DNA from: a virus
Direction: 5' to 3' (one strand)
DNA length: 59,379 nt
Virus record (IMG/VR): IMGVR_UViG_3300020420_000015
Span: 1-59,379 of that record
Shown here: piece after piece, positions 4,007 through 44,702 of the stretch
How positions within the stretch are numbered: position 1 is the first letter of the stretch
Layout: the number at the start of each line of letters is the position of its first letter
Position numbers and translations under genes: made by a program
The notes under the pieces: model-generated
Told to the model about the DNA's origin: nothing
Databases searched by the model: none
Seen by the model: the letters and a program-made list of their open reading frames with translations, nothing else

Positions 4007-4479
4007 TACTTTAACTCAATTTCAAGATTCCCAGCGTTGATACGGAAGATATCGCCCGTAGCGATAGTCTTTGACGCATCTAATGCACCGATAAACAGGA
4101 CATTGCCGCCACTGCCTTCTGTCACCAAACTGGCGCTTGCATGAGTCGCTATAAATGCGTGTGTGACCGTATTGCTTGTTCCGCCTGATGCTGCAAACTC
4201 TATATTGTTAGTGTTTGTAGCTTTTTGTGCTTCAGTGGTATCTGACGTTACGGTCCAGTTTGCCGCTGTAACTTGCAATCGGGCATAGTTTGTGAAGGTG
4301 GCCTCTGTAATTACAGGAGCGTCTGTTTCACCAGAGGTATTATTAAAGTTAGATACCGCTGTTGCCAGCCCAACATATATGCTGTCACCGGGGGTTGAAA
4401 AGGAACCAGCGTTATTCTTGAACAAAAAGTTAAGTAACTTATTCTCAAGAAACGTGGTTGCCGCGTTACTCGTTGCCAT
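4006..4479 (-). CDS. Virion structural protein of the small beta-sandwich type
   Basis: This 157-residue protein begins MATSNAATTFLENKLLNFLF and has a beta-rich core containing IYVGLATAVSNFNN and GNVLFIGALDASKTIATGD. A similar domain plan (FKIALF and a late GTFAITIP strand) is seen in the 139-residue neighbour at 5164-5583, so the two may be distant paralogues. Such proteins often form tail or head surface structures. Function is inferred only from neighbourhood. Confidence 0.6.
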   Translation of the reverse strand: MATSNAATTFLENKLLNFLFKNNAGSFSTPGDSIYVGLATAVSNFNNTSGETDAPVITEATFTNYARLQVTAANWTVTSDTTEAQKATNTNNIEFAASGGTSNTVTHAFIATHASASLVTEGSGGNVLFIGALDASKTIATGDIFRINAGNLEIELK

Positions 4480-22397: not shown

Positions 22398-22448
22398 CCT
22401 GTCGCTGGCATTGGTAGCCAGTTATGAAGAGACACCAAACGAAACAGG
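22398..22448 (+). ncRNA. Hammerhead-like RNA, degenerate or variant (type III layout)
   Basis: CCTGT (22398-22402) pairs with ACAGG (22444-22448). A cleavage-site C follows at 22403. A hairpin GCTGGC/GCCAGT (22404-22422) stands where stem I should be, then TGAAGA (22425-22430), then GAAAC (22441-22445). The loop TTGGT (22411-22415) can pair with ACCAA (22434-22438). The usual core CUGANGA reads AUGAAGA, so the essential C3 is replaced by A and one extra base is present; stem II is at most one pair. The closing strand overlaps the ribosome-binding site AGGAGA of the next gene. Confidence 0.4.
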
Positions 22449-22457
22449 AGACGTTTT

Positions 22458-22631
22458 ATGTATAAAGTAATAGCTGAAGCACACAATATGAGTGCAGATA
22501 GTACATGTAGAACACTGCAAGATGCTAAGAATGCTTGCGGTGTTATGCTTGAGAAGTTGGGTTATCAGAAAAAAGATATCCACATCATCACGCCTGAAGG
22601 CAAAAAATTATACCTCGTTCCTCAAAAATAG
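22458..22631 (+). CDS. Small early protein downstream of hammerhead-like leader
   Basis: This 57-residue gene runs from ATG 22458 to TAG 22631, after AGGAGA at 22447-22452. It starts MYKVIAEAHNMSADSTCRTL and ends EGKKLYLVPQK. Its layout resembles small alpha/beta proteins, but no family is recognised. It is the first gene after the long structured leader and next to another short gene at 22641. Confidence 0.6.
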   Translation: MYKVIAEAHNMSADSTCRTLQDAKNACGVMLEKLGYQKKDIHIITPEGKKLYLVPQK

Positions 22632-22820: not shown

Positions 22821-22890
22821 GCTACCTGATGATGGGCGCGTAGGACACGCCCGAAACACCGCGCCTTGCGGTGTCGTAGCGTCCTGCTAC
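22821..22890 (+). ncRNA. Hammerhead ribozyme A, type I layout
   Basis: Stem I GCTAC (22821-22825) pairs with GTAGC (22876-22880). The core CTGATGA is at 22826-22832, followed by one extra T. Stem II is GGGCG (22834-22838)/CGCCC (22848-22852). GAA is at 22853-22855. Stem III is ACACCGC (22856-22862)/GCGGTGT (22868-22874), with the cleavage-site C at 22875. Loop II AGGAC (22842-22846) can pair with GTCCT at 22881-22885. The self-cleaved downstream mRNA would start about 40 bases before the ATG at 22916. Confidence 0.85.
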
Positions 22891-22915: not shown

Positions 22916-23587
22916 ATGCAAAACGTAACAAAAATTTTAGACATGGACACACTTAACACAATCAATGCCAATGAGAAAAAAATTGGCAAGCTTAACGGTA
23001 AGGCTTCCGCGATTACAGAAGAACGCCAGAAGCTAAAAATGACTAGCTACTGTCTGCTAGTGTCCGGCATGGCAGGGGCTAAGTTGGATAAAGGTAATTT
23101 TAAGTCTGCCGACAGGACCAACCTGAAGGGTGATTTAATGGACGCTGGCGGCCTGACAGATAGCATGGCCGAAAAGTACATCAAAAATGTCGCTGGTGCT
23201 AAAAATAAGCTTAAGGACCACGGCATTAACTCAGATAACATCACACCAGCTGGTGTTGCTGAAATCTTCGAGGACCAAGGTATTACCTCAGAAGCCAAGC
23301 TTATAAAGTTAATCTCTGGTGACAGTGCAAAGTCTAAGGTAGAGCAATTAGTTGACAAGGTTGCTGGCAAGCGTTCGCGCAAGAAAGATAAAGACGGCAA
23401 CAGTGTAGACGGTGATGCTTGGTTGGGTGGTTTGACAGATGAAGATTTATCTGAATTCCACAACAAACTGGCAGATGCTTTAAGGCTTCGCGGTGAAATA
23501 AAGAAAGCCTCTCAGGCGGCTGGTGATAAGGCTCAGGCTGAGATTGAACAAGTCAATGCAATGTGTGAGCAATTAGGCGCGGCATAG
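22916..23587 (+). CDS. Early protein of unknown function
   Basis: This protein of about 223 residues starts at ATG 22916, with GGAGA upstream; an in-frame TTG four codons earlier is less likely. It is alpha-helical with a charged middle. The region KVAGKRSRKKDKDGNSVDGD joins an N-terminal helical part (ILDMDTLNTINANEKKIGKL) and a C-terminal helical part. The segment AGGLTDSMAEKYIKNVAGAK may be a small helix-hairpin module. It is flanked on both sides by hammerhead ribozymes and lies upstream of the MoxR/VWA genes, so it may act with them. Confidence 0.7.
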   Translation: MQNVTKILDMDTLNTINANEKKIGKLNGKASAITEERQKLKMTSYCLLVSGMAGAKLDKGNFKSADRTNLKGDLMDAGGLTDSMAEKYIKNVAGAKNKLKDHGINSDNITPAGVAEIFEDQGITSEAKLIKLISGDSAKSKVEQLVDKVAGKRSRKKDKDGNSVDGDAWLGGLTDEDLSEFHNKLADALRLRGEIKKASQAAGDKAQAEIEQVNAMCEQLGAA

Positions 23588-23654
23588 CTACCTGACGAGC
23601 CAGCTTAGGACACTGGCGAAACTACCCCACGGGGTAGTCGTAGCGTCCTGCTAC
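23587..23654 (+). ncRNA. Hammerhead ribozyme B, type I layout
   Basis: Stem I GCTAC (23587-23591; the first G is the last base of the preceding stop codon) pairs with GTAGC (23640-23644). The core CTGACGA is at 23592-23598. Stem II is GCCAG (23599-23603)/CTGGC (23613-23617). GAA is at 23618-23620. Stem III is ACTACCC(C) (23621-23628)/GGGGTAGT (23631-23638), with the cleavage-site C at 23639. Loop AGGAC (23607-23611) can pair with GTCCT (23645-23649). Stems II and III differ from ribozyme A but remain paired, which is covariation. Confidence 0.88.
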
Positions 23655-23678
23655 ATTCAACAACTTATGGAGAAAGTC

Positions 23679-23888
23679 ATGAAAACTTTTGTTCATTTTG
23701 TCGGTATGAGGACTGATGCTGAATACTTAGCCGCAGTCAGAGTTTACGGCAAACCTGATTTCATCCATCTGTATCATGACCGCAGAATGTATGGGGATAT
23801 TGATGCAGATAGGGATATTGTGGTGCTTGGTTCAAAAGGCAGGGATTTACCCTGTGAATATTCAGACCAAGACCATGAGAGACATTAA
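23679..23888 (+). CDS. Small early protein, conserved in marine phages
   Basis: This 69-residue gene starts ATG 23679 after GGAGA, about 40 bases after the predicted ribozyme cleavage. The product begins MKTFVHFVGMRTDAEYLAAV and continues VYGKPDFIHLYHDRRMYGDI and DRDIVVLGSKGRD. I recognise this pattern (MKTxVHFVG...KPDFIHR) as a small conserved phage family with unknown function. Confidence 0.65.
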   Translation: MKTFVHFVGMRTDAEYLAAVRVYGKPDFIHLYHDRRMYGDIDADRDIVVLGSKGRDLPCEYSDQDHERH

Positions 23889-35419: not shown

Positions 35420-35770
35420 ATGAAATTTAATAGCGATTTCAAATATGATTTAGAGGTTGGGCAAGTAGAAGAAAAGCGGCTTGCCCAACTTTTGTCTGGG
35501 GCTACAATAGAAGTTAAAAGAGACTTCTTGGCTCACAAAACTGGCAATGTTTTTGTTGAGTATGAGAGCAGAGGAAGGCCTTCTGGTATATCAACAACTC
35601 AGGCACAATACTGGGCTTTTATGCTGGAAGGTGACACAATCGTCATAATCAAGACAGAAAGGCTAAAAGATAAATGTCGTGCGGAGTTCCAATCTGGCAG
35701 AACAACATCAGGTGGCGATAGCGACACAAGTAAAGGCGTATTGTTGCCAGTATCTCAACTTACTTTATAA
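35420..35770 (+). CDS. PD-(D/E)XK nuclease-like protein
   Basis: This 116-residue protein starts ATG 35420, without a ribosome-binding site and next to a dyad. It has the core EKRLAQLLSGATIEVKRDFL, then TGNVFVEYESRGRPSGISTT and QAQYWAFMLEGDTIVIIKTE. The E-V-K triad and the QAxYW region match small phage PD-(D/E)XK nuclease-like proteins. Its stop overlaps the end of the opposite-strand giant gene by 11 bases, the meeting point of early and late transcription. Confidence 0.65.
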   Translation: MKFNSDFKYDLEVGQVEEKRLAQLLSGATIEVKRDFLAHKTGNVFVEYESRGRPSGISTTQAQYWAFMLEGDTIVIIKTERLKDKCRAEFQSGRTTSGGDSDTSKGVLLPVSQLTL

Positions 35771-38700
35771 GACCAGCATCTCTCATTATCTTGTTGGCAT
35801 CTTTTACAACAGCACTTATGCGCTCGTTGATGTTTTTAATTAAGACTCTTTTCTGATTTTCTGGCACTACAGGAGAACGATTTATCTTGTTCTTCTGTCG
35901 AAGTAACTTGTTTCTAAAGTTGTTTAAGGCTCTTATTTGTCCAGCTACAGAAAGTTCTTCTCTGTATTTTGACATAACTTCTCTAACACGAGCCTCGTCA
36001 CCGCCCTGTCTTGCAAACTTTAATTCTTCTACTGCTCTATACACATCATCTCTTAGTTGCATAAATGCGCTGGTGTCTTCTTGTGTTGATGGAGATATAT
36101 AAAGCCTTCTGATGAACGGTATCTCCTTAACAACATCACCCTCAAAATCACCTCTCAAAGCATCTACGATGTTTTTAGGAAGTTCTGCGGTTCTCAAGGC
36201 AAAAGCACCAGCACCACCTGTAAAATAATTACCCCAGTATTCCAATATGTTTGGAGACACATCAATAAGGCCCGGAGTTATCTCTGTGCCGCCTATTGAA
36301 TTTAAAGCATTACTGATTGTTTTTGCTGTAGTGCTGGTGTTTGCCCAATACTTTTGAGAGTCAGGTCTTTGCACACCGAAAGGAGAGCCTTCTTTGTATA
36401 TTGGTACTCCTTTAAAGTTTCTGTTTGCCAACAATTCAACAAACGGGTCTCCCACTTCTGGTGACACAAGTGTTGCATAATCCACAGGCTCACTAAAATC
36501 ATTTATGCCGCCAAATGGACTAATTGCATCTAGGAATGTACCCATCGCTGAGTTGAACGCTTGTCCGCTGGAATACTCACCTCTTGAATATCTACTTAAA
36601 ACACGACCAAAATTAGTCGCCATGTTTAATCCATACGCCAGTGGTATTTTTATAAACTTTTCATCACCCGCTACGCCAAATGTAGGAATTATTATGTTAT
36701 GCTCTAAGTGATAGTCTATGAGTTCATCGTAGTCTTTTTGACCGTCATCATCCTCATCACCAGATATTGCGGCATTGAACTGGTCCATCAGTATGCCAGA
36801 CAGCAACAGGCCAGCCCATATCTTTCTTACATTTTTAGACCTGACTGCGGCATTCATTAGGGCAAAGGAGCCTTGCAGGGATGCGTTGTAGAAAAGGTAC
36901 AGCGCATTCATTAACTTTTTCTCTTCGCCAGCTTTGGCAAAGTTTACTGTTACATTTCTTGCGGCTTGAGCTGCCCTTGCTTCAGGGATTCCTCTGTCTA
37001 TTAAGGCTTGGAACGTGGCAACACGGACACCGTTTTCAATGGCTGTGTTATAGTCATCAAGAAACTTTAGCAACTTGTTAAAGCCAATCTTATTTAGGCC
37101 CAGTTTATTTTTTATACCTGTCCCAGTTATATCGTCTAGAAGACCTTTTAGATTACGCATCTGGTCTTCAACGCTATCTACTTGGTTGGTAGAGTTTTTA
37201 CCCCCTGCCTTAACAAATCTTTCAAATGCATCTGTCCAATCTGTTCGCCCATACTTTTCAAAATCATCTGCTCTTAGCTTGCCAAGTATACCTCTTACAG
37301 CAGGCAGTGCATTTTTCATTACTTCTTTGGTCATCGGAGGCTGGTTTTCATACTGAGCCACGTTCACACCAGCAGTCTCCAAGTCACGGAAGAAGTTTGG
37401 AATGGTAAATGATGGGTTGTATGTTGTGTTGATGCTAGACAAGAACCTGTTAAATTTACCTAGCTTGTCAACGACCCAACCACCTCTGCTTATACCATCA
37501 CCGTAAGCACCCTTCATGGCACGGGCAATTCTATCGTCAAATATTAGAACATTAACACGCTCTTTCTGACCGCCTATCTTTACTCTTAATATATTATTTT
37601 CTAACTCTGGGTCATACTCAGTTAGAACCTCTGCAATGCCTGTTGTGTTGATGTCCTTGTCCTGTACAAGATTTAGAAACGACTGACCAACTAGATTTCT
37701 CTCTGCATCAACTATCGTTCTTTGATTTTGGTTCATCACATTAGCAATGATATTTTCTGCATATTGTGTGCCTCTACCCTGTCTTATTCTAGGGTCTTGT
37801 GCAATTCGACCACCGTACAAATTTTGATAGCGTCTGGATGTAATTCTTGGAAGATTGCTAGCATCCTGCTCTATCTCTTCATCAACATCTAAAAGGCCAC
37901 GCAAAGGAACGTAGAAATCAAACTCGTACTCGCTAACCATTAAGCCGCCTCTGCGGCGCTCTTCGTTAGTGCTTTCTATGACCTTTGAAACAATGCCTGC
38001 TATTCTGTTGAAGGTTGCTCTGGATTCTAAATCTAACGTGTCCACCCAATCAATGATTGCTTTGGCTTCTTCGTTTGACATACCAGAACCCATGCCACGA
38101 TTAAATTTATCTTGCACATATCTGTTACGTTCTATGGCATGTTTGGCGTATAGAAATGCCTCCACAGCGGCAAGCTGGTCTGTGTATGTTTCTTTTGCCC
38201 TTGCGTCTCTAAAGAAGCCAGAGATGACATCTAAAGTTTTATACTGAGCATCTGACAAAGATACATCTCGTATGTTTTCACCAATAGGCTCAAACAAATT
38301 CTCTCTGTTTTCGTCTAGCTTTGCACCTATCAGACCTTGAGAAAGCTCCTCACGCATGTACACATCCAGAGCATCACTAACCTTGTAGCCATCTGCCCTT
38401 AATTCATCCATTAACTTTCCTACCGGAAGCATGGCATCTTGAAATTTGGTTAGAAATCTCTCTGACCTAGCGCGAATTACTTCAGACTTCTCATCACCAA
38501 CAAATTTACCAAGAAATTTACTCAACACGTTTGCAGTGTTGTTGTAAGTTACACGGTCTATAAACTCTTCAACCTCTGCGGTTGCCTGAGCAATAGGCGG
38601 CTGTGCTGTTTTAGGAACATCTACGACTTGTGCTTGAGAAAATCTTCTTACGCTTTCTCTTCTAACGAGCGTTTCAAGTCTTTCTGAGAATTCATCGAGT

Positions 38701-41700
38701 TCTCTCCTGAAAGCACTTGGAGCAATCGAGAGGTCTTCTGCGCCATAGATTGGCCTCTGTTCAACTGTACGTTCATCGCTCTCTGCGCGGCTTCTAACAA
38801 TTTCGACTTGTCTTTCATATCCACCTTCCTCTAATATTTTTTTGTAAGCACCATTTGAAAACAAAGTTGCAAAGTCAGGAACATCTGCAATATCAACATC
38901 TGTTATAAGACCTTGTTTTAATAAATCTGTCGCTGAAAGACCTGAGCCACCTTCACTTCTTCTTCTCTCAACTATGGCCTTTGACACACTCCAAACAGTT
39001 TCCTGTATTTCTGATGGACTCCATTGGTCGCCAGTTATTTGACTAGCGGCCTCTGCGGCCTGCCTAACTTTTGCCGAAAACCCAATATATCCACTACTTT
39101 TTATGCCTAATTCACCAATCTCATCTCTGATTGCCTTTCTTTTAGACTCTGAAAATCTATCTTTGTCTATCAGTGCATAATTAGCCATCCATGTGTCATT
39201 GGTGACTTCATCTACAGCGCCAAGAAGATTTAACATAAATGAATTTACTTTAGGTCCGGATATTCTAAGGCTCATCTCAGTGCCTTCTGGGGCAGAAAGC
39301 GCTCTAATTGAATTATTTATCCAAGCTGGCAACACTGATTCAGTGCCTTTGTCGCCTTGCACTGACTCTCCCATTATTCTCATAATGCTTTGTTGGTCTT
39401 TTGGTCGGCCTGATTTATTCCAATTAACCCATATGTTAAGCGTGTTAATTGCGTTTGACTCAACTGATGTTTGTGGAGATGTTGCGGCTAGTAACGCTGT
39501 AAATCTTCTTGCGTCATACAGGCCAAAGAAATCTTGTATTGCTTGTGCGGAGTTTCTGTACCAACCCTTCTTTGCTCTGCCAGCAACAGCAACAGAACCC
39601 ATCTCCTCTGCGCTTGGAATTTCTGTAAATATGTTTACGATTGCTTGAATGCGGTCATTGACATGATGTTTCATGCCAGTTTCTGTTAGCTCTATCTCAT
39701 CTTCGAGCATGTACGGCAGAATATCTGCATATCCCCCGGGCAGGTTTCTTCTGGATTCTTTAACCTCGGACGATTTTTTGCCTACTGGACTTACAGATAA
39801 CCTGTTAAATACTGCCGCCGCCATACCATAATCAGCTTTAGCAAAATATCCCACATACCCAGCGTCCTTTATCATCTTCTCCGTTTGTGTAACAACAAAC
39901 TGATTTATGTAAAGTTCTGGGTTGTTAATATTTTCTATTGATATCTCTCTGACCTTATCTGTAACCATAGCCTCGGCCTTTGCCTTGAAGCCATCTGGGT
40001 CTTCTATAAAGTCATACAGTCCATCTACAGGTATAAAAGTTTCATAGGCATTTTCGCCAGCAAGCCATTCTTTTCTATAGCCCTCTGGGTAACCTACATT
40101 TAATCCGTAGTAACTTCTTGCTTGGAAATCATTGGGGAAGCTGACACGACGAGTATACTCTTCCCCCTTTGCATTGTAGTTAGTGCCTTGTCTCTCTGGC
40201 TCGACTACATCTATAGCACCTTCTTTAGAATAATGTACAAGTCTTGTTAGGCCTTTTTCATCAGTTCTGGGTTTTGTGACTTCAAAATCACTTTCTTCGC
40301 TCTCTGAAACCTCGCCTCCAACGCCCGCTTGTCCATCTCTAATTCTTGTGCCTGCTCTGGTGTTTGGCCCGACAGTTCCTGACGGATAATTTCGTCTGCT
40401 TTCTCTTGAATTTTTGACATCGCTATTTGACTCCATGTCTGGAGCAACGCCTTCTTCAACAACAAAATCTGGCAAAAGAGTTATCTTTTGTTCAGCATAA
40501 ACTGTGTCAGATGGATTTGCTCTGTTCTGTTCTCCCATCGGCCCGAAGTTGACCCAAGAGTTTTGACCTCTTGTTTCTGTAGTCATGGCACGAGCCGCAA
40601 GAGGAGTATACATTCTTACATGCGCTTGCCAAGCATTTTCTTCACCACGGGCAGTGAAGGTGCTTCCCTCAAGCCCGTGACCAAAATAATCATGAACAAT
40701 ACGGAAGACATCATTAACACGCATATCAACGCCATCAACGACTTCATTGGCTCTTTTTAGTAATGGATTTGCGGCTTCGTCTGCTTCTGTTATTGCTTCT
40801 TGACCAAACCCATCATCCGTTGGAAATACCCATAGATGATTGTTGTCCCTTATGTCTATCAGGACATCTCTGCTTCCATTTGGATAAGGGTTCTCTTGGT
40901 CCAATCTTATAAATTCAATTTGTACCCCAGTATCTTTTACAAATTGCCATTGAGCCAAAGTCTCTTCTGCCATTGCGTTGTAAGCGGCACGAGTTTCTGG
41001 GTCAGTTGAGTTGTCCTTTGCCTCTTCAAAAGCTGTGGCAATGCGACCAGCTAAGTCTTTATCTACTTCAACGTAAACTGACTGCCTGCGGTTAGGCATG
41101 TCTACAGACTGTAAATATCTTGTTTTTGCATCTACGACCTGTGGTATTGGCCCGATAAGATTAGACGGTAAATTATCAAGGCGGCGTATAGAATATCTAA
41201 ATCCAGACTTTGCAGAAAATTTAGGATTTCTTGCCAATACAAGAGGGCCAACTTGAACAACAAAATCTGCCGCAATCACAGGCTGTGTTGTCATTCTGTC
41301 ATAAAAGTAGGAGTGACGCTCAGGGTCCATCCCAACTTGAACAACATCTGGGTCATTCATCATTTGTTGTGCAAAGGCAAATGCCTCGTCTGGAGACATT
41401 TTTACATATTTACCTTGCATTGTAGCGATGGTGCTTTTTTCTTTTCCGGTTGCAATTTTTTCTGCCGCCCGTTCTGACATCCCAAAAAGCGCATCTGTTA
41501 TAACCGCTGTGGAATCATAGCCCAAAGCTTCGCCAGCCATAAGATTTTCAGGTATAGCAACAGTGGCGTCCACAAACTTACCATCAACTTGCACTCTGCC
41601 AGAGCCTTCGCGGAACTCAAGATTCTCTAGTTTTTTAATGTTAGGCTTGTGATATGAAACAATCCATGTGCCGTTATCCCTATAAGATGGTATGTCAAGC

Positions 41701-44700
41701 CTTATTCTTACGATATCCCCATCACTCAATATTTGTGACGGCACTCCAACTAAAGTTGACTTTTGGACTTTCTTTTCTCCGGTTCTTGGGTCTGTTGCAG
41801 TGCCAGATATGGAATCCACCATGTTCTCGTATGATTCAGGGGCAGGAACCGTTTCATATGGTATAATTGGCTTAAACTCGTTTACCAGCTTATCGTATCG
41901 CTCGTAATTAATTTCACCTTCAGATAATTTGTTTGCCGCATCTTTGAGTTCAGGTATGCGCTTGGTTACATCCTTAAACGATTGCTCTATCCGCTCTATA
42001 TTGCCACGCTCAGGAATTAAAAATCCTGCACGGACACCAGCAGTAGAGTAACGAGTTTCATTTAATGCCTGTCTTGCCAGATTAATGTTTCTATTTCTGC
42101 GTCCAATCTTTCCAGATTTTATGCCTTCAAATATTTCTGCGGCCTGATTAAATCCAGCTTCTTTATGGGCTGTAAATATAGATTTAAAGAAGTTTACTAT
42201 TCTGCCAAATAAAGTTTTTGGCTTGCCGCCAAGGCGTAGTTTGCCTTCAGCGTATGCACGGAACATTTCTGCAACAGCTTCTTCTTGCTGAAGCTCTGGG
42301 TCCGCATCAGGGTACATGTATTCCGCACGGTCAAGAAAAGTATATTCACGCTCTCTCTTAGCGCCCTTTATGTCCTTTACATACTTTCTTTTCTCTGCGG
42401 CTTTTACAAGTATCTGATATTCCTGCTCCGTAAGAAGGCCTAAATTTTTTATTGCGTGAATGACCTCATGGTTCATAACTGCGGCTAGTCTTTGTTCTAG
42501 CTCTGCGTCACTCATGTTGGGGTCGTATAGGTCCATAGCAAGAGTGATAATTCTCTTGCCGTCCTCTGTTTGCTCAAATGTTCCCTCTGCAAGAGATAAG
42601 TTGTCAGCAGGGATTACATTAGTGGTTACTAACTCTACATCTGTTAGCCCCATCTTAAATAATAGTTTACGAAGGGCGTTGGCTACACGTTGTTTTTTTC
42701 TGCTGTACTCAGGTGTGGGCTGTGTGGCTTCTTCGGCGGCTTTTCTAGCATCGTTTGCCCTTAATTGAAGCGCAGAGTTTTGCTCTGACGGGGGTGGCGA
42801 TATATCTTTTCTGGCATCTATAGCCCTTGAATACCCGTCCACTTTTTCTTGTGCGGTTTCTAATTCACGCTGTTGCTCTGGCGTTTGCACACCTTGCTTT
42901 TTTATTTTATCTAATTTTTTTTCCGCATCCAGCTTTTGCTTTTGTAGCTCAAGAAGATTGTCTTCTCTTTGCTTTGCAGCAACTTCCTCTGGGCTTGGAG
43001 GTGTTGGTTCTTTAGCTGGGTTTACAACTTTAAATTCAGTTGGGCTTATAGGTGTTATGACACCTCTTTTTGTAAGGTCTTCTATAATGCCTGTGGCTAT
43101 ATTGTCCCTTACTTTTAAAGCTTCTTTTAATTTCTTTTTGCTTACCGCACCGTCTTTTCTTACGGCAACACCGCTTTCAACTGCAAGTATTGCCGCCTCT
43201 CTTGACTTGGATACTTCCTGTTCAAATTCTTTTTGCTCTTTTAATTCTTCTTTTTCCTCTGCCGTTAGCTTTTTGTCTGCTGTAGCAGGGTTGAGTTTGG
43301 CATTAGCCCTGTTATATGCCTCAATACCAAGAACAGATTCTATTTCTGATAACGGTGCTGGTTTATCTATGTCAGGTTGACCATTTCTTTGGCGGTTCAT
43401 GCGAATAACCTGAGCCTCAGCATCCGGCAACTCATCTAGCTCTACTTCAAACCTACCAGCCAAGGCTTCTTTAGCGGCCTGAATGCCCACTTGCCGCTCT
43501 TTATCTGGATTTAACCCAAGGCCCAGAATATTTTCTTTTACCTGTTTTCTTTTTTCAAGGGTTTCGCTTGGTGTGTCTGGTTGGTCTGCTAACTCTGGAG
43601 ACGGGAGAGCAAGTCTTGGTGCTTCTATAGCTAATTGACCTTCTGGAATCTCATTTCCATCTGCGTCAAACCTTCTGCCATCCATAGAAGCTCTACCACG
43701 AGCCGCCATTTCTGCGGCCTCTACACCTTCTTCTTGCTGGTCCGCAACCAGTTGTGCCTGTCCTTTAAGAAACTTTTTAACTCTTCTCCCGGCTATTGTT
43801 TCCAACAGGAAGTTGAATGTAGCACCAGCACCACCACCATAAATTGCATCATCTTTGTATGCACTTGCCGCAATTTCAAGGTCAGGATTGTAAAATCCTT
43901 TTTCCGTAAGGTCTTGAAGAACAGCGGCCGTAACTTCTTGGCCACCTTCCGCAAGGCCAGCAACGCCAGCAGACTTGAGCCTACCTCTGATTGTTTTTAC
44001 TGCTTCTTGTTTTGCGTCTTTTGGAACTTTCTTTAAGATATTTGCTAATGCACCAAATACCCTGCCAACAGGCAACGCTTCAGTAGCGCCAATAGCCCCA
44101 CCTGTGAGAATTGCAAGTTGTTTTGAGTCAACATCTTTGCCCTCTTCTAGTGCGCGACCAATACGCTCGTATTGATTTTGTGCGCCAAGAGAAACACCCA
44201 TCGCACCAGCGGCGGCAGTTCCAGCTAATCTAGTTGCAGTTACGCCAGCACCAGCGGCTGATGCTAGCTTCATGCCCCCAGCGGCAGGCACAAGAAACGA
44301 TGCAAGAGAACCAATGGCTTGACCAGACTTGCTCATAATATTGTCATCCGGTGTGCCAACAACGTACTCAACACCAGATTGAAGTGCATCTGTTATGCTT
44401 TGTCCTGCCCGTTCTAAACCTGATTGGTCGCCGGGAAGAATCGCCTCTGTCAATGAGGCTAGACCGCCCGGAATCTGGGCAAAACTATTACCAAAGCCAT
44501 ACGCTGTTCCCTGTATAAGGTCGCCTATGCCACCAACAGTATCTTCTTCTATAAGTTCTGGTTTTTCTGTTTGAAGAAAGCCCTCTCTTCTAGCCATTTC
44601 GGCTAGAATTTTGGTCTTTTCCTCTGGTGTGGGGTCTGACCCAGCAATGCTAACAGGATAGACCTTGCCTGTGTTCGGGCTTGTTGCATAAATAGTACCC

Positions 44701-44702
44701 AT
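35760..44702 (-). CDS. Giant polyvalent virion protein (2980 residues)
   Basis: This protein is like the polyvalent proteins that phages inject. Residues about 50-310 are glycine/alanine-rich and hydrophobic. Residues about 500-570 resemble a small winged helix. A zincin site HEVIH is at 745-749, with EEAVAEMF about 55 residues later. The middle region (about 1100-1700) contains LVHYSKEGAIDVVEPE and VHDYFGHGLEGSTFTARG, resembling ADP-ribosyltransferase-type effector domains. ATSPQTSVESNA plus SGPKVNSFMLNLL resembles the DNA-glycosylase-like HhH modules of such proteins. The C-terminus is helical. It converges with the early block and overlaps it by 11 bases. Confidence 0.7.
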   Translation of the reverse strand: MGTIYATSPNTGKVYPVSIAGSDPTPEEKTKILAEMARREGFLQTEKPELIEEDTVGGIGDLIQGTAYGFGNSFAQIPGGLASLTEAILPGDQSGLERAGQSITDALQSGVEYVVGTPDDNIMSKSGQAIGSLASFLVPAAGGMKLASAAGAGVTATRLAGTAAAGAMGVSLGAQNQYERIGRALEEGKDVDSKQLAILTGGAIGATEALPVGRVFGALANILKKVPKDAKQEAVKTIRGRLKSAGVAGLAEGGQEVTAAVLQDLTEKGFYNPDLEIAASAYKDDAIYGGGAGATFNFLLETIAGRRVKKFLKGQAQLVADQQEEGVEAAEMAARGRASMDGRRFDADGNEIPEGQLAIEAPRLALPSPELADQPDTPSETLEKRKQVKENILGLGLNPDKERQVGIQAAKEALAGRFEVELDELPDAEAQVIRMNRQRNGQPDIDKPAPLSEIESVLGIEAYNRANAKLNPATADKKLTAEEKEELKEQKEFEQEVSKSREAAILAVESGVAVRKDGAVSKKKLKEALKVRDNIATGIIEDLTKRGVITPISPTEFKVVNPAKEPTPPSPEEVAAKQREDNLLELQKQKLDAEKKLDKIKKQGVQTPEQQRELETAQEKVDGYSRAIDARKDISPPPSEQNSALQLRANDARKAAEEATQPTPEYSRKKQRVANALRKLLFKMGLTDVELVTTNVIPADNLSLAEGTFEQTEDGKRIITLAMDLYDPNMSDAELEQRLAAVMNHEVIHAIKNLGLLTEQEYQILVKAAEKRKYVKDIKGAKREREYTFLDRAEYMYPDADPELQQEEAVAEMFRAYAEGKLRLGGKPKTLFGRIVNFFKSIFTAHKEAGFNQAAEIFEGIKSGKIGRRNRNINLARQALNETRYSTAGVRAGFLIPERGNIERIEQSFKDVTKRIPELKDAANKLSEGEINYERYDKLVNEFKPIIPYETVPAPESYENMVDSISGTATDPRTGEKKVQKSTLVGVPSQILSDGDIVRIRLDIPSYRDNGTWIVSYHKPNIKKLENLEFREGSGRVQVDGKFVDATVAIPENLMAGEALGYDSTAVITDALFGMSERAAEKIATGKEKSTIATMQGKYVKMSPDEAFAFAQQMMNDPDVVQVGMDPERHSYFYDRMTTQPVIAADFVVQVGPLVLARNPKFSAKSGFRYSIRRLDNLPSNLIGPIPQVVDAKTRYLQSVDMPNRRQSVYVEVDKDLAGRIATAFEEAKDNSTDPETRAAYNAMAEETLAQWQFVKDTGVQIEFIRLDQENPYPNGSRDVLIDIRDNNHLWVFPTDDGFGQEAITEADEAANPLLKRANEVVDGVDMRVNDVFRIVHDYFGHGLEGSTFTARGEENAWQAHVRMYTPLAARAMTTETRGQNSWVNFGPMGEQNRANPSDTVYAEQKITLLPDFVVEEGVAPDMESNSDVKNSRESRRNYPSGTVGPNTRAGTRIRDGQAGVGGEVSESEESDFEVTKPRTDEKGLTRLVHYSKEGAIDVVEPERQGTNYNAKGEEYTRRVSFPNDFQARSYYGLNVGYPEGYRKEWLAGENAYETFIPVDGLYDFIEDPDGFKAKAEAMVTDKVREISIENINNPELYINQFVVTQTEKMIKDAGYVGYFAKADYGMAAAVFNRLSVSPVGKKSSEVKESRRNLPGGYADILPYMLEDEIELTETGMKHHVNDRIQAIVNIFTEIPSAEEMGSVAVAGRAKKGWYRNSAQAIQDFFGLYDARRFTALLAATSPQTSVESNAINTLNIWVNWNKSGRPKDQQSIMRIMGESVQGDKGTESVLPAWINNSIRALSAPEGTEMSLRISGPKVNSFMLNLLGAVDEVTNDTWMANYALIDKDRFSESKRKAIRDEIGELGIKSSGYIGFSAKVRQAAEAASQITGDQWSPSEIQETVWSVSKAIVERRRSEGGSGLSATDLLKQGLITDVDIADVPDFATLFSNGAYKKILEEGGYERQVEIVRSRAESDERTVEQRPIYGAEDLSIAPSAFRRELDEFSERLETLVRRESVRRFSQAQVVDVPKTAQPPIAQATAEVEEFIDRVTYNNTANVLSKFLGKFVGDEKSEVIRARSERFLTKFQDAMLPVGKLMDELRADGYKVSDALDVYMREELSQGLIGAKLDENRENLFEPIGENIRDVSLSDAQYKTLDVISGFFRDARAKETYTDQLAAVEAFLYAKHAIERNRYVQDKFNRGMGSGMSNEEAKAIIDWVDTLDLESRATFNRIAGIVSKVIESTNEERRRGGLMVSEYEFDFYVPLRGLLDVDEEIEQDASNLPRITSRRYQNLYGGRIAQDPRIRQGRGTQYAENIIANVMNQNQRTIVDAERNLVGQSFLNLVQDKDINTTGIAEVLTEYDPELENNILRVKIGGQKERVNVLIFDDRIARAMKGAYGDGISRGGWVVDKLGKFNRFLSSINTTYNPSFTIPNFFRDLETAGVNVAQYENQPPMTKEVMKNALPAVRGILGKLRADDFEKYGRTDWTDAFERFVKAGGKNSTNQVDSVEDQMRNLKGLLDDITGTGIKNKLGLNKIGFNKLLKFLDDYNTAIENGVRVATFQALIDRGIPEARAAQAARNVTVNFAKAGEEKKLMNALYLFYNASLQGSFALMNAAVRSKNVRKIWAGLLLSGILMDQFNAAISGDEDDDGQKDYDELIDYHLEHNIIIPTFGVAGDEKFIKIPLAYGLNMATNFGRVLSRYSRGEYSSGQAFNSAMGTFLDAISPFGGINDFSEPVDYATLVSPEVGDPFVELLANRNFKGVPIYKEGSPFGVQRPDSQKYWANTSTTAKTISNALNSIGGTEITPGLIDVSPNILEYWGNYFTGGAGAFALRTAELPKNIVDALRGDFEGDVVKEIPFIRRLYISPSTQEDTSAFMQLRDDVYRAVEELKFARQGGDEARVREVMSKYREELSVAGQIRALNNFRNKLLRQKNKINRSPVVPENQKRVLIKNINERISAVVKDANKIMRDAGLIK

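Follow-up and report, generated by a model that had tools for sequence, protein, structure and literature searches.

Early mRNA of phage T7 is cut between the early genes by RNase III, which yields stable messages with structured ends. The locus described here resembles that system in its predicted defined cuts between early phage genes and predicted structured ends, but in T7 the cutting is done by a host protein, whereas the phage RNA considered here would cut itself, leaving a 5′-OH and a 2′,3′-cyclic phosphate. Hammerhead ribozymes are clustered in prophages and phages, and the main text of their 2011 description proposed that they divide long transcripts of phages into mRNAs the length of a gene (Perreault et al. 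2011, PMC3088659). The same text reports that tandem bacterial hammerheads self-cleave in vitro, an Agrobacterium set doing so also in E. coli, and describes hammerheads that, like those analyzed here, flank phage genes singly or in tandem and carry a pseudoknot between the stem II loop and the stem I region. Phage hammerheads, their pseudoknots, and the mRNA-processing idea are already known (PMC3088659). The name of the phage family from which the present copies come was not found there, nor was any account of a third strand for stem I, of a product hairpin, or of hammerhead types being exchanged at an orthologous junction. The product hairpin and the type exchange look new against a literature search that was thin on subscription papers. 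An engineered system that is similar in outcome is RiboJ, in which the sTRSV hammerhead is joined to a 23-nt hairpin; it cuts itself just 5′ of the ribosome site and leaves the hairpin at the new 5′ end (PMC6206723). RiboJ raises mRNA approximately twofold and protein two- to tenfold, and the terminal hairpin has been suggested as one cause (PMC6206723). The predicted structures and positions described below likewise put a 5′ hairpin after the cut and upstream of the ribosome site. The RiboJ hairpin is appended, however, whereas the phage hairpin reuses strands of the ribozyme, and covariation links its partner strand to stem I.

The window, meaning the whole stretch of DNA that was analyzed, comprises the 59,379 bases of an IMG/VR virus record from a marine dsDNA phage. 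Early genes are on the + strand from approximately 22.4 kb on, and terminase, portal, and other structural genes are on the − strand. The features of the early region are as follows.

22398–22448, + strand: degenerate type III hammerhead, recognized by eye, with the core CTGANGA replaced by TATGAAGA, 10 nt 5′ of the gene at 22458
22821–22890, + strand: hammerhead ribozyme A, including its pseudoknot and product hairpin; predicted cut after C22875, with gene A starting 40 nt on, at 22916
22916–23587, + strand: gene A, 223 aa, a conserved neighbor between hammerheads A and B
23585–23587, + strand: TAG stop of gene A, its final G being the first base of B stem I
23587–23644, + strand: hammerhead ribozyme B, type I (stem I open), from direct reading, scan, covariation, and MFE fold
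23587–23591 and 23640–23644: stem I of B, GCTAC and GTAGC
23592–23598: core CTGACGA of B
23599–23603 and 23613–23617: stem II of B, GCCAG and CTGGC
23607–23611, + strand: pseudoknot strand AGGAC in loop II of B, partner 23645–23649, from covariation
23618–23620: GAA of B
23621–23627 and 23632–23638: stem III of B, ACTACCC and GGGTAGT
23639, + strand: C17 of B; cleavage predicted 3′ of C23639 from the hammerhead consensus, the predicted 3′ product starting at 23640
23640–23654, + strand: product hairpin of B, GTAGC-(GTCCT)-GCTAC, at the 5′ end of the predicted 3′ cleavage product
23645–23649, + strand: GTCCT of B, the 3′ pseudoknot strand and also the loop of the product hairpin
23650–23654, + strand: third copy of the stem I strand of B, the 3′ arm of the product hairpin
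23669–23681, + strand: Shine-Dalgarno GGAG (23669) and ATG (23679) of the next gene, 39 nt past the B cut
23679–23888, + strand: small gene 3′ of B, 69 aa
24169: MoxR-like ATPase gene, which follows the 69-aa gene
25278: DUF2201 metallopeptidase/VWA gene, which follows the ATPase gene

By every sequence and structure criterion testable, B is a hammerhead. Its core was read directly as C3 U4 G5 A6 N7 G8 A9, G12 A13 A14, A15.1-U16.1, and an H17 that is not G, all invariant in the alignment described below. B, a type I element, shares with RF00163 (Hammerhead_1) and RF00008 (Hammerhead_3) the conserved core, A15.1-U16.1, cleavage after H17, and three stems. An initial annotation had placed a hammerhead at 23587 to 23654; it is an intact type I element, with all parts where that annotation had put them. 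The accompanying statement that A and B have the same core layout holds nearly: stem II of B adjoins the core directly at 10.1-11.1 (G23599-C23617), but in A one extra T (22833) separates A9 of the core from stem II. Most relatives have one extra base at this point, usually T, as A does and B does not, and by this base most copies here differ from RF00163 and RF00008.

A structural motif scan of the window returned exactly two matches, A and B. The same scan gave no match per window in 30 Markov shuffles and none in the reversed sequence of all loci (1.18 Mb), and chance origin of the motif was rejected on these zero counts. For RNA truncated after the 3′ strand of stem I, MFE folding gave precisely the hammerhead for B (−21.4 kcal/mol) and, for A, the hammerhead plus an additional small helix in loop II (−25.7 kcal/mol). 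Rfam was rejected as an identifier: there was no gathering match in the window, where A and B were both missed, or in 8 related loci, and the single weak match in an E-value scan of the window (RF00008, 17.6 bits) was sub-threshold and in the wrong register. Current Rfam models thus miss a whole phage lineage of hammerheads.

Relatives were collected by pattern scans of viral contigs and one scan of genome contigs, which gave 45 distinct type I elements; 7 further loci were found later. The first gene A search had found only one close relative, and the family was obtained through DNA patterns and the terminase. The type I-bearing phages have in common gene A, the MoxR-like ATPase, the DUF2201/VWA gene, terminase, and portal. 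Orthologs of gene A are present in related phages, and searches of PHROGs and Pfam gave no family match for it. A DNA search for related isolates found none. By protein, the nearest named isolate is the distantly related Roseobacter phage CRP-7 (36% for the ATPase), and terminase identities of 52 to 58% lead to Pelagibacter phages HTVC023P and HTVC027P, phage 023Pt_psg01, and phage DSL-LC04, in all four of which the scan found no hammerhead in 25 kb around the terminase. Over 385 alphaproteobacterial genomes, model R1 matched only Caulobacter copies, and RF00163 had no match above the cut-off; of 30 loci taken from the latter search, the motif scan was positive in one, which is doubtful. Pseudoknotted type I hammerheads in bacterial genomes are located at 4235 and 5637 of L042 (Caulobacter sp. 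D5) and at −4492 of L041 (Dichloromethanomonas). Two further pattern matches, L027 and L043, look like chance matches. Two elements (L016, 3725–3817, and L038, 3996–4088) have a long stem III insertion of approximately 32 nt that may contain a hairpin of its own, with core and third strand intact.

An alignment of 39 sequences (A1) was scored against the active fold, with shuffles and slid partners as controls. In total, 94.9% of cells were paired, and two-sided changes were present in 18/22 pairs; the covariation score was 0.451, compared with 0.132 for shuffled sequences and at most 0.103 for slid partners. Pairing was complete in stem I (100%), reached 96.9% in stem II, and ranged from 82.9 to 96.6% in stem III, with two-sided changes in all three stems. 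These sequence counts overstate the number of independent events, because many of the sequences share descent. From A and B, the initial annotation had argued that stems II and III differ in sequence while remaining paired and that the RNA structure is selected. The first point is borne out by the two copies and again by the alignment, and covariation across many related phages argues for the second. Relatives lacking paired stems, which that annotation had named as contrary evidence, were looked for and did not turn up. Its hammerhead interpretation is supported, as judged from the sequences.

Two pairings extend beyond those named in the initial annotation. In the first, loop II pairs with the bases immediately 3′ of stem I, forming a pseudoknot of the kind reported in the main text of Perreault et al. 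(PMC3088659). The two strands change together among relatives (AGGAC/GTCCT, GAGAC/GTCTC, and GAGGCA/TGCCTT); 96.4% of cells in the AGGAC/GTCCT pairing are paired, with two-sided changes in 5/5 pairs. In the second, the bases that follow the pseudoknot strand are a further copy of the stem I 5′ strand, and thus the 3′ strand of stem I has two alternative partners, the 5′ strand ahead of the cut or this third strand once the cut is made. The initial annotation was right that the downstream GTCCTGCTAC is conserved but missed the reason, which is that the strand for the pseudoknot and the third copy of the stem I strand both come from it. Because the hairpin formed with the third strand competes with stem I, it would form on the cleaved 3′ product. 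The product hairpin of B has a predicted energy of −6.5 kcal/mol (z, −3.7). In the alignment, 99.5% of its cells are paired and 5/5 pairs covary, with changes on both sides. Each aligned sequence had been ended at its best third strand, and a separate control was therefore run without that choice: 41/45 elements had 5/5 hairpin pairs, versus 5.5% for shuffled downstream sequence. The third strand was also present in 7/7 of the later elements, which were found with a pattern that left it unspecified. The four exceptions are two copies in Caulobacter sp. D5, one in Dichloromethanomonas, and one of five in the viral contig G004 (4/5 pairs). Both Caulobacter sp. D5 copies (L042/L035) lack the third strand, which indicates that it is dispensable for the ribozyme.

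The third strand follows stem I through its variation. For each of the stem I variants GCTAC, GCTAT, GCTGC, GTCAC, and ACCGC, the third strand matches, and where the third strand is unlike the first, wobble pairing is still possible (GCTAT, GCTGT, GTTAC); pairing rather than identity is therefore kept. This bears on the idea of the hammerheads as mobile or selfish cassettes of small size, in which the third strand is the remnant of a target-site or cassette duplication. Near-identical modules do occur at several junctions of one phage (three in L033, five in G004), and copy number differs among relatives. A duplication remnant would nevertheless sit poorly with third strands that match their stem I variants or differ by wobbles that preserve pairing, with start-codon spacing that is the same across all phage copies whose start codon is detectable, and with the lack of any other duplicated sequence around the element, and we regard such an origin as quite improbable. 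The five type I hammerheads of G004 (IMGVR_UViG_3300006916_000359; loci L017 and L019) lie on a 24.7-kb contig, and both their stem I and their pseudoknot have diverged in sequence. Neither gene A nor the ATPase turned up in the stretches L017 and L019.

The elements keep a fixed position relative to genes. A start codon with a ribosome site is located 35 to 47 nt past the cut in 42/45 elements, and among the 41 elements with an upstream open reading frame, the upstream stop ends no more than 2 nt from the first base of stem I in 29. Often, as in B, the G of TAG is that first base. Stop codons also abut or sit inside intergenic hairpins that have no hammerhead (L008 and L011), and the overlap of stop and stem I may therefore reflect compactness only. 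Translation coupling through the overlapping stop codon is disfavored, since ribozyme-free hairpins overlap stops in the same manner.

Taking these results together, we consider it likely that A and B are constitutive self-cleaving sites that split early polycistronic mRNA into hairpin-protected pieces. The fold, covariation, alternative pairings, product hairpin, spacing, and persistence at an orthologous junction were read from sequence; from them we infer that the RNA cleaves itself while being transcribed, that the third strand captures the product, and that both mRNAs are stabilized. Stems I to III, the core, and the loop II pseudoknot would fold as the polycistronic transcript is made, with self-cutting taking place after C23639. 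This would leave the upstream mRNA ending in the stem III hairpin and one base bearing a 2′,3′-cyclic phosphate. The downstream mRNA would start with a 5′-OH, and its first 15 bases would refold to GTAGC-GTCCT-GCTAC, since the third stem I copy takes the place of the strand lost with the ribozyme. Since this refolding removes the partners of both stem I and the pseudoknot, cleavage would be effectively irreversible. The downstream mRNA would thereby gain a blunt, structured 5′ end approximately 25 to 30 nt ahead of its ribosome site. In E. coli, a 5′ hairpin and a 5′-OH stabilize mRNA, and they may do likewise in the hosts here; a 5′-terminal stem-loop can reportedly have this effect in E. coli (Emory et al. 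1992; Bouvet and Belasco 1992). RppH, through which the 5′-end-dependent RNase E route is opened, favors 5′ ends that are single stranded (PMC3997798). The likeliest use of the elements would be constitutive operon processing that needs no host nuclease and gives each message protected ends and a stability of its own, separate from the others. Because the anatomy predicts both the product ends and a noncatalytic role for one strand, the function is testable by simple mutations that spare the ribozyme.

The main rival explanation starts from the same alternative pairing. The third strand could serve as a switch rather than a cap: in the uncut RNA, the hairpin would mask the 3′ strand of stem I and that of the pseudoknot, and cutting would occur only shortly after transcription or on a trigger, such as ribosomes finishing the upstream gene. 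Both structures are formed by the same bases, and the pseudoknot-free minimum-energy fold, which is the hammerhead without the third strand, is no longer the hammerhead when that strand is included, but an energy model without pseudoknots cannot fairly weigh the active fold. The overlap of the upstream stop codon with stem I in most copies would suit a ribosome-driven trigger but is matched at the hammerhead-free hairpins of L008 and L011, where it may be compactness. In addition, hammerheads of types II and III at the same junction would have no such competitor. A switch appears unlikely.

It could also be that the ribozymes serve to release a specific RNA between A and B, either the gene A mRNA or a circle made by end ligation. 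A and B flank gene A, 0.76 kb apart, and double cleavage would therefore yield a discrete gene A mRNA; hammerheads can also ligate. Many relatives have a single hammerhead, however, and the product hairpin should impede ligation of the 5′-OH end. According to the main text on similar bacterial arrays, circular products were sought there and not detected (PMC3088659). Release of a specific RNA is likewise quite improbable and would be surprising.

The constitutive-processing reading is informed by the junction directly before gene A. To avoid selection on type I, loci were chosen through the terminase, and 24 of those fetched, some of them near-duplicates, covered gene A. Directly before gene A, a type I hammerhead was present in 4/24 loci, a type III hammerhead in 9/24 (eight by scan and L070 by eye), and no hammerhead in 11/24; a hammerhead is therefore not essential to this phage family. 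Four of the 11 (L097, L107, L115, and L116) have type III elements nearby. In one phage type (L004/L028/L079), a type III element precedes gene A and a type I element precedes the ATPase. In four loci (L008, L011, L058, and L089), a hairpin or terminator-like structure was seen by eye where junction two has no hammerhead. Roseobacter phage CRP-7 (L039, MK613349) has a type II hammerhead at 571 to 622, before gp02, a possible counterpart of gene A. In this phage, which infects Rhodobacteraceae bacterium FZCC0042, the element is predicted to produce a 5′ end at record position 594. The annotated start of gp02 (619) falls within the ribozyme core CTGATGA, and the in-frame ATG at 658, which has an AAGGA site, is the more likely start.

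The exchange of types would leave the outcome for the downstream mRNA unchanged. In types II and III, the 3′ product begins with a hairpin because stem I is closed. A type I element, with its open stem I, would yield a product with a loose 5′ end, were it not for the third strand, which restores the hairpin. An end-forming function is preferred mainly because all types share this 5′ hairpin outcome. The chances are about even, in our judgment, that the phage family selects an RNA "cut-and-cap" module rather than one ribozyme sequence: topologies would interchange at one early junction, with the downstream mRNA always headed by a hairpin and the upstream mRNA often ending near one, and the type I third strand would have evolved for strand-exchange capture, irreversible cleavage, and a 5′ cap. 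Such a module would be a natural counterpart of RiboJ and suggests a compact natural design for uniform, hairpin-capped mRNAs.

Within one type III subfamily, 35/50 distinct foldable elements have a hairpin just 5′ of the cut that is stronger than in shuffles, and start codons are located 65 to 76 nt past the cut. This subfamily, represented in 62 viral contig stretches (loci L093, L097, L105, L107, L111, L115-L117, and further loci), has a conserved U10.1-U11.1 mismatch at the base of stem II. The type III element at 22398–22448 of the window has the layout CCTGT-C-GCTGGC-attggta-GCCAGT-TATGAAGA-GACACCAAAC-GAA-ACAGG. Related type III copies, at −7842 of L058 and before gene A in L070, have an intact CTGATGA core, and the window element is probably inactive. 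Elsewhere in the window, the − strand at 35760–44702 encodes a protein of 2980 aa; close to its C terminus is an LPD38 (large polyvalent protein) domain.
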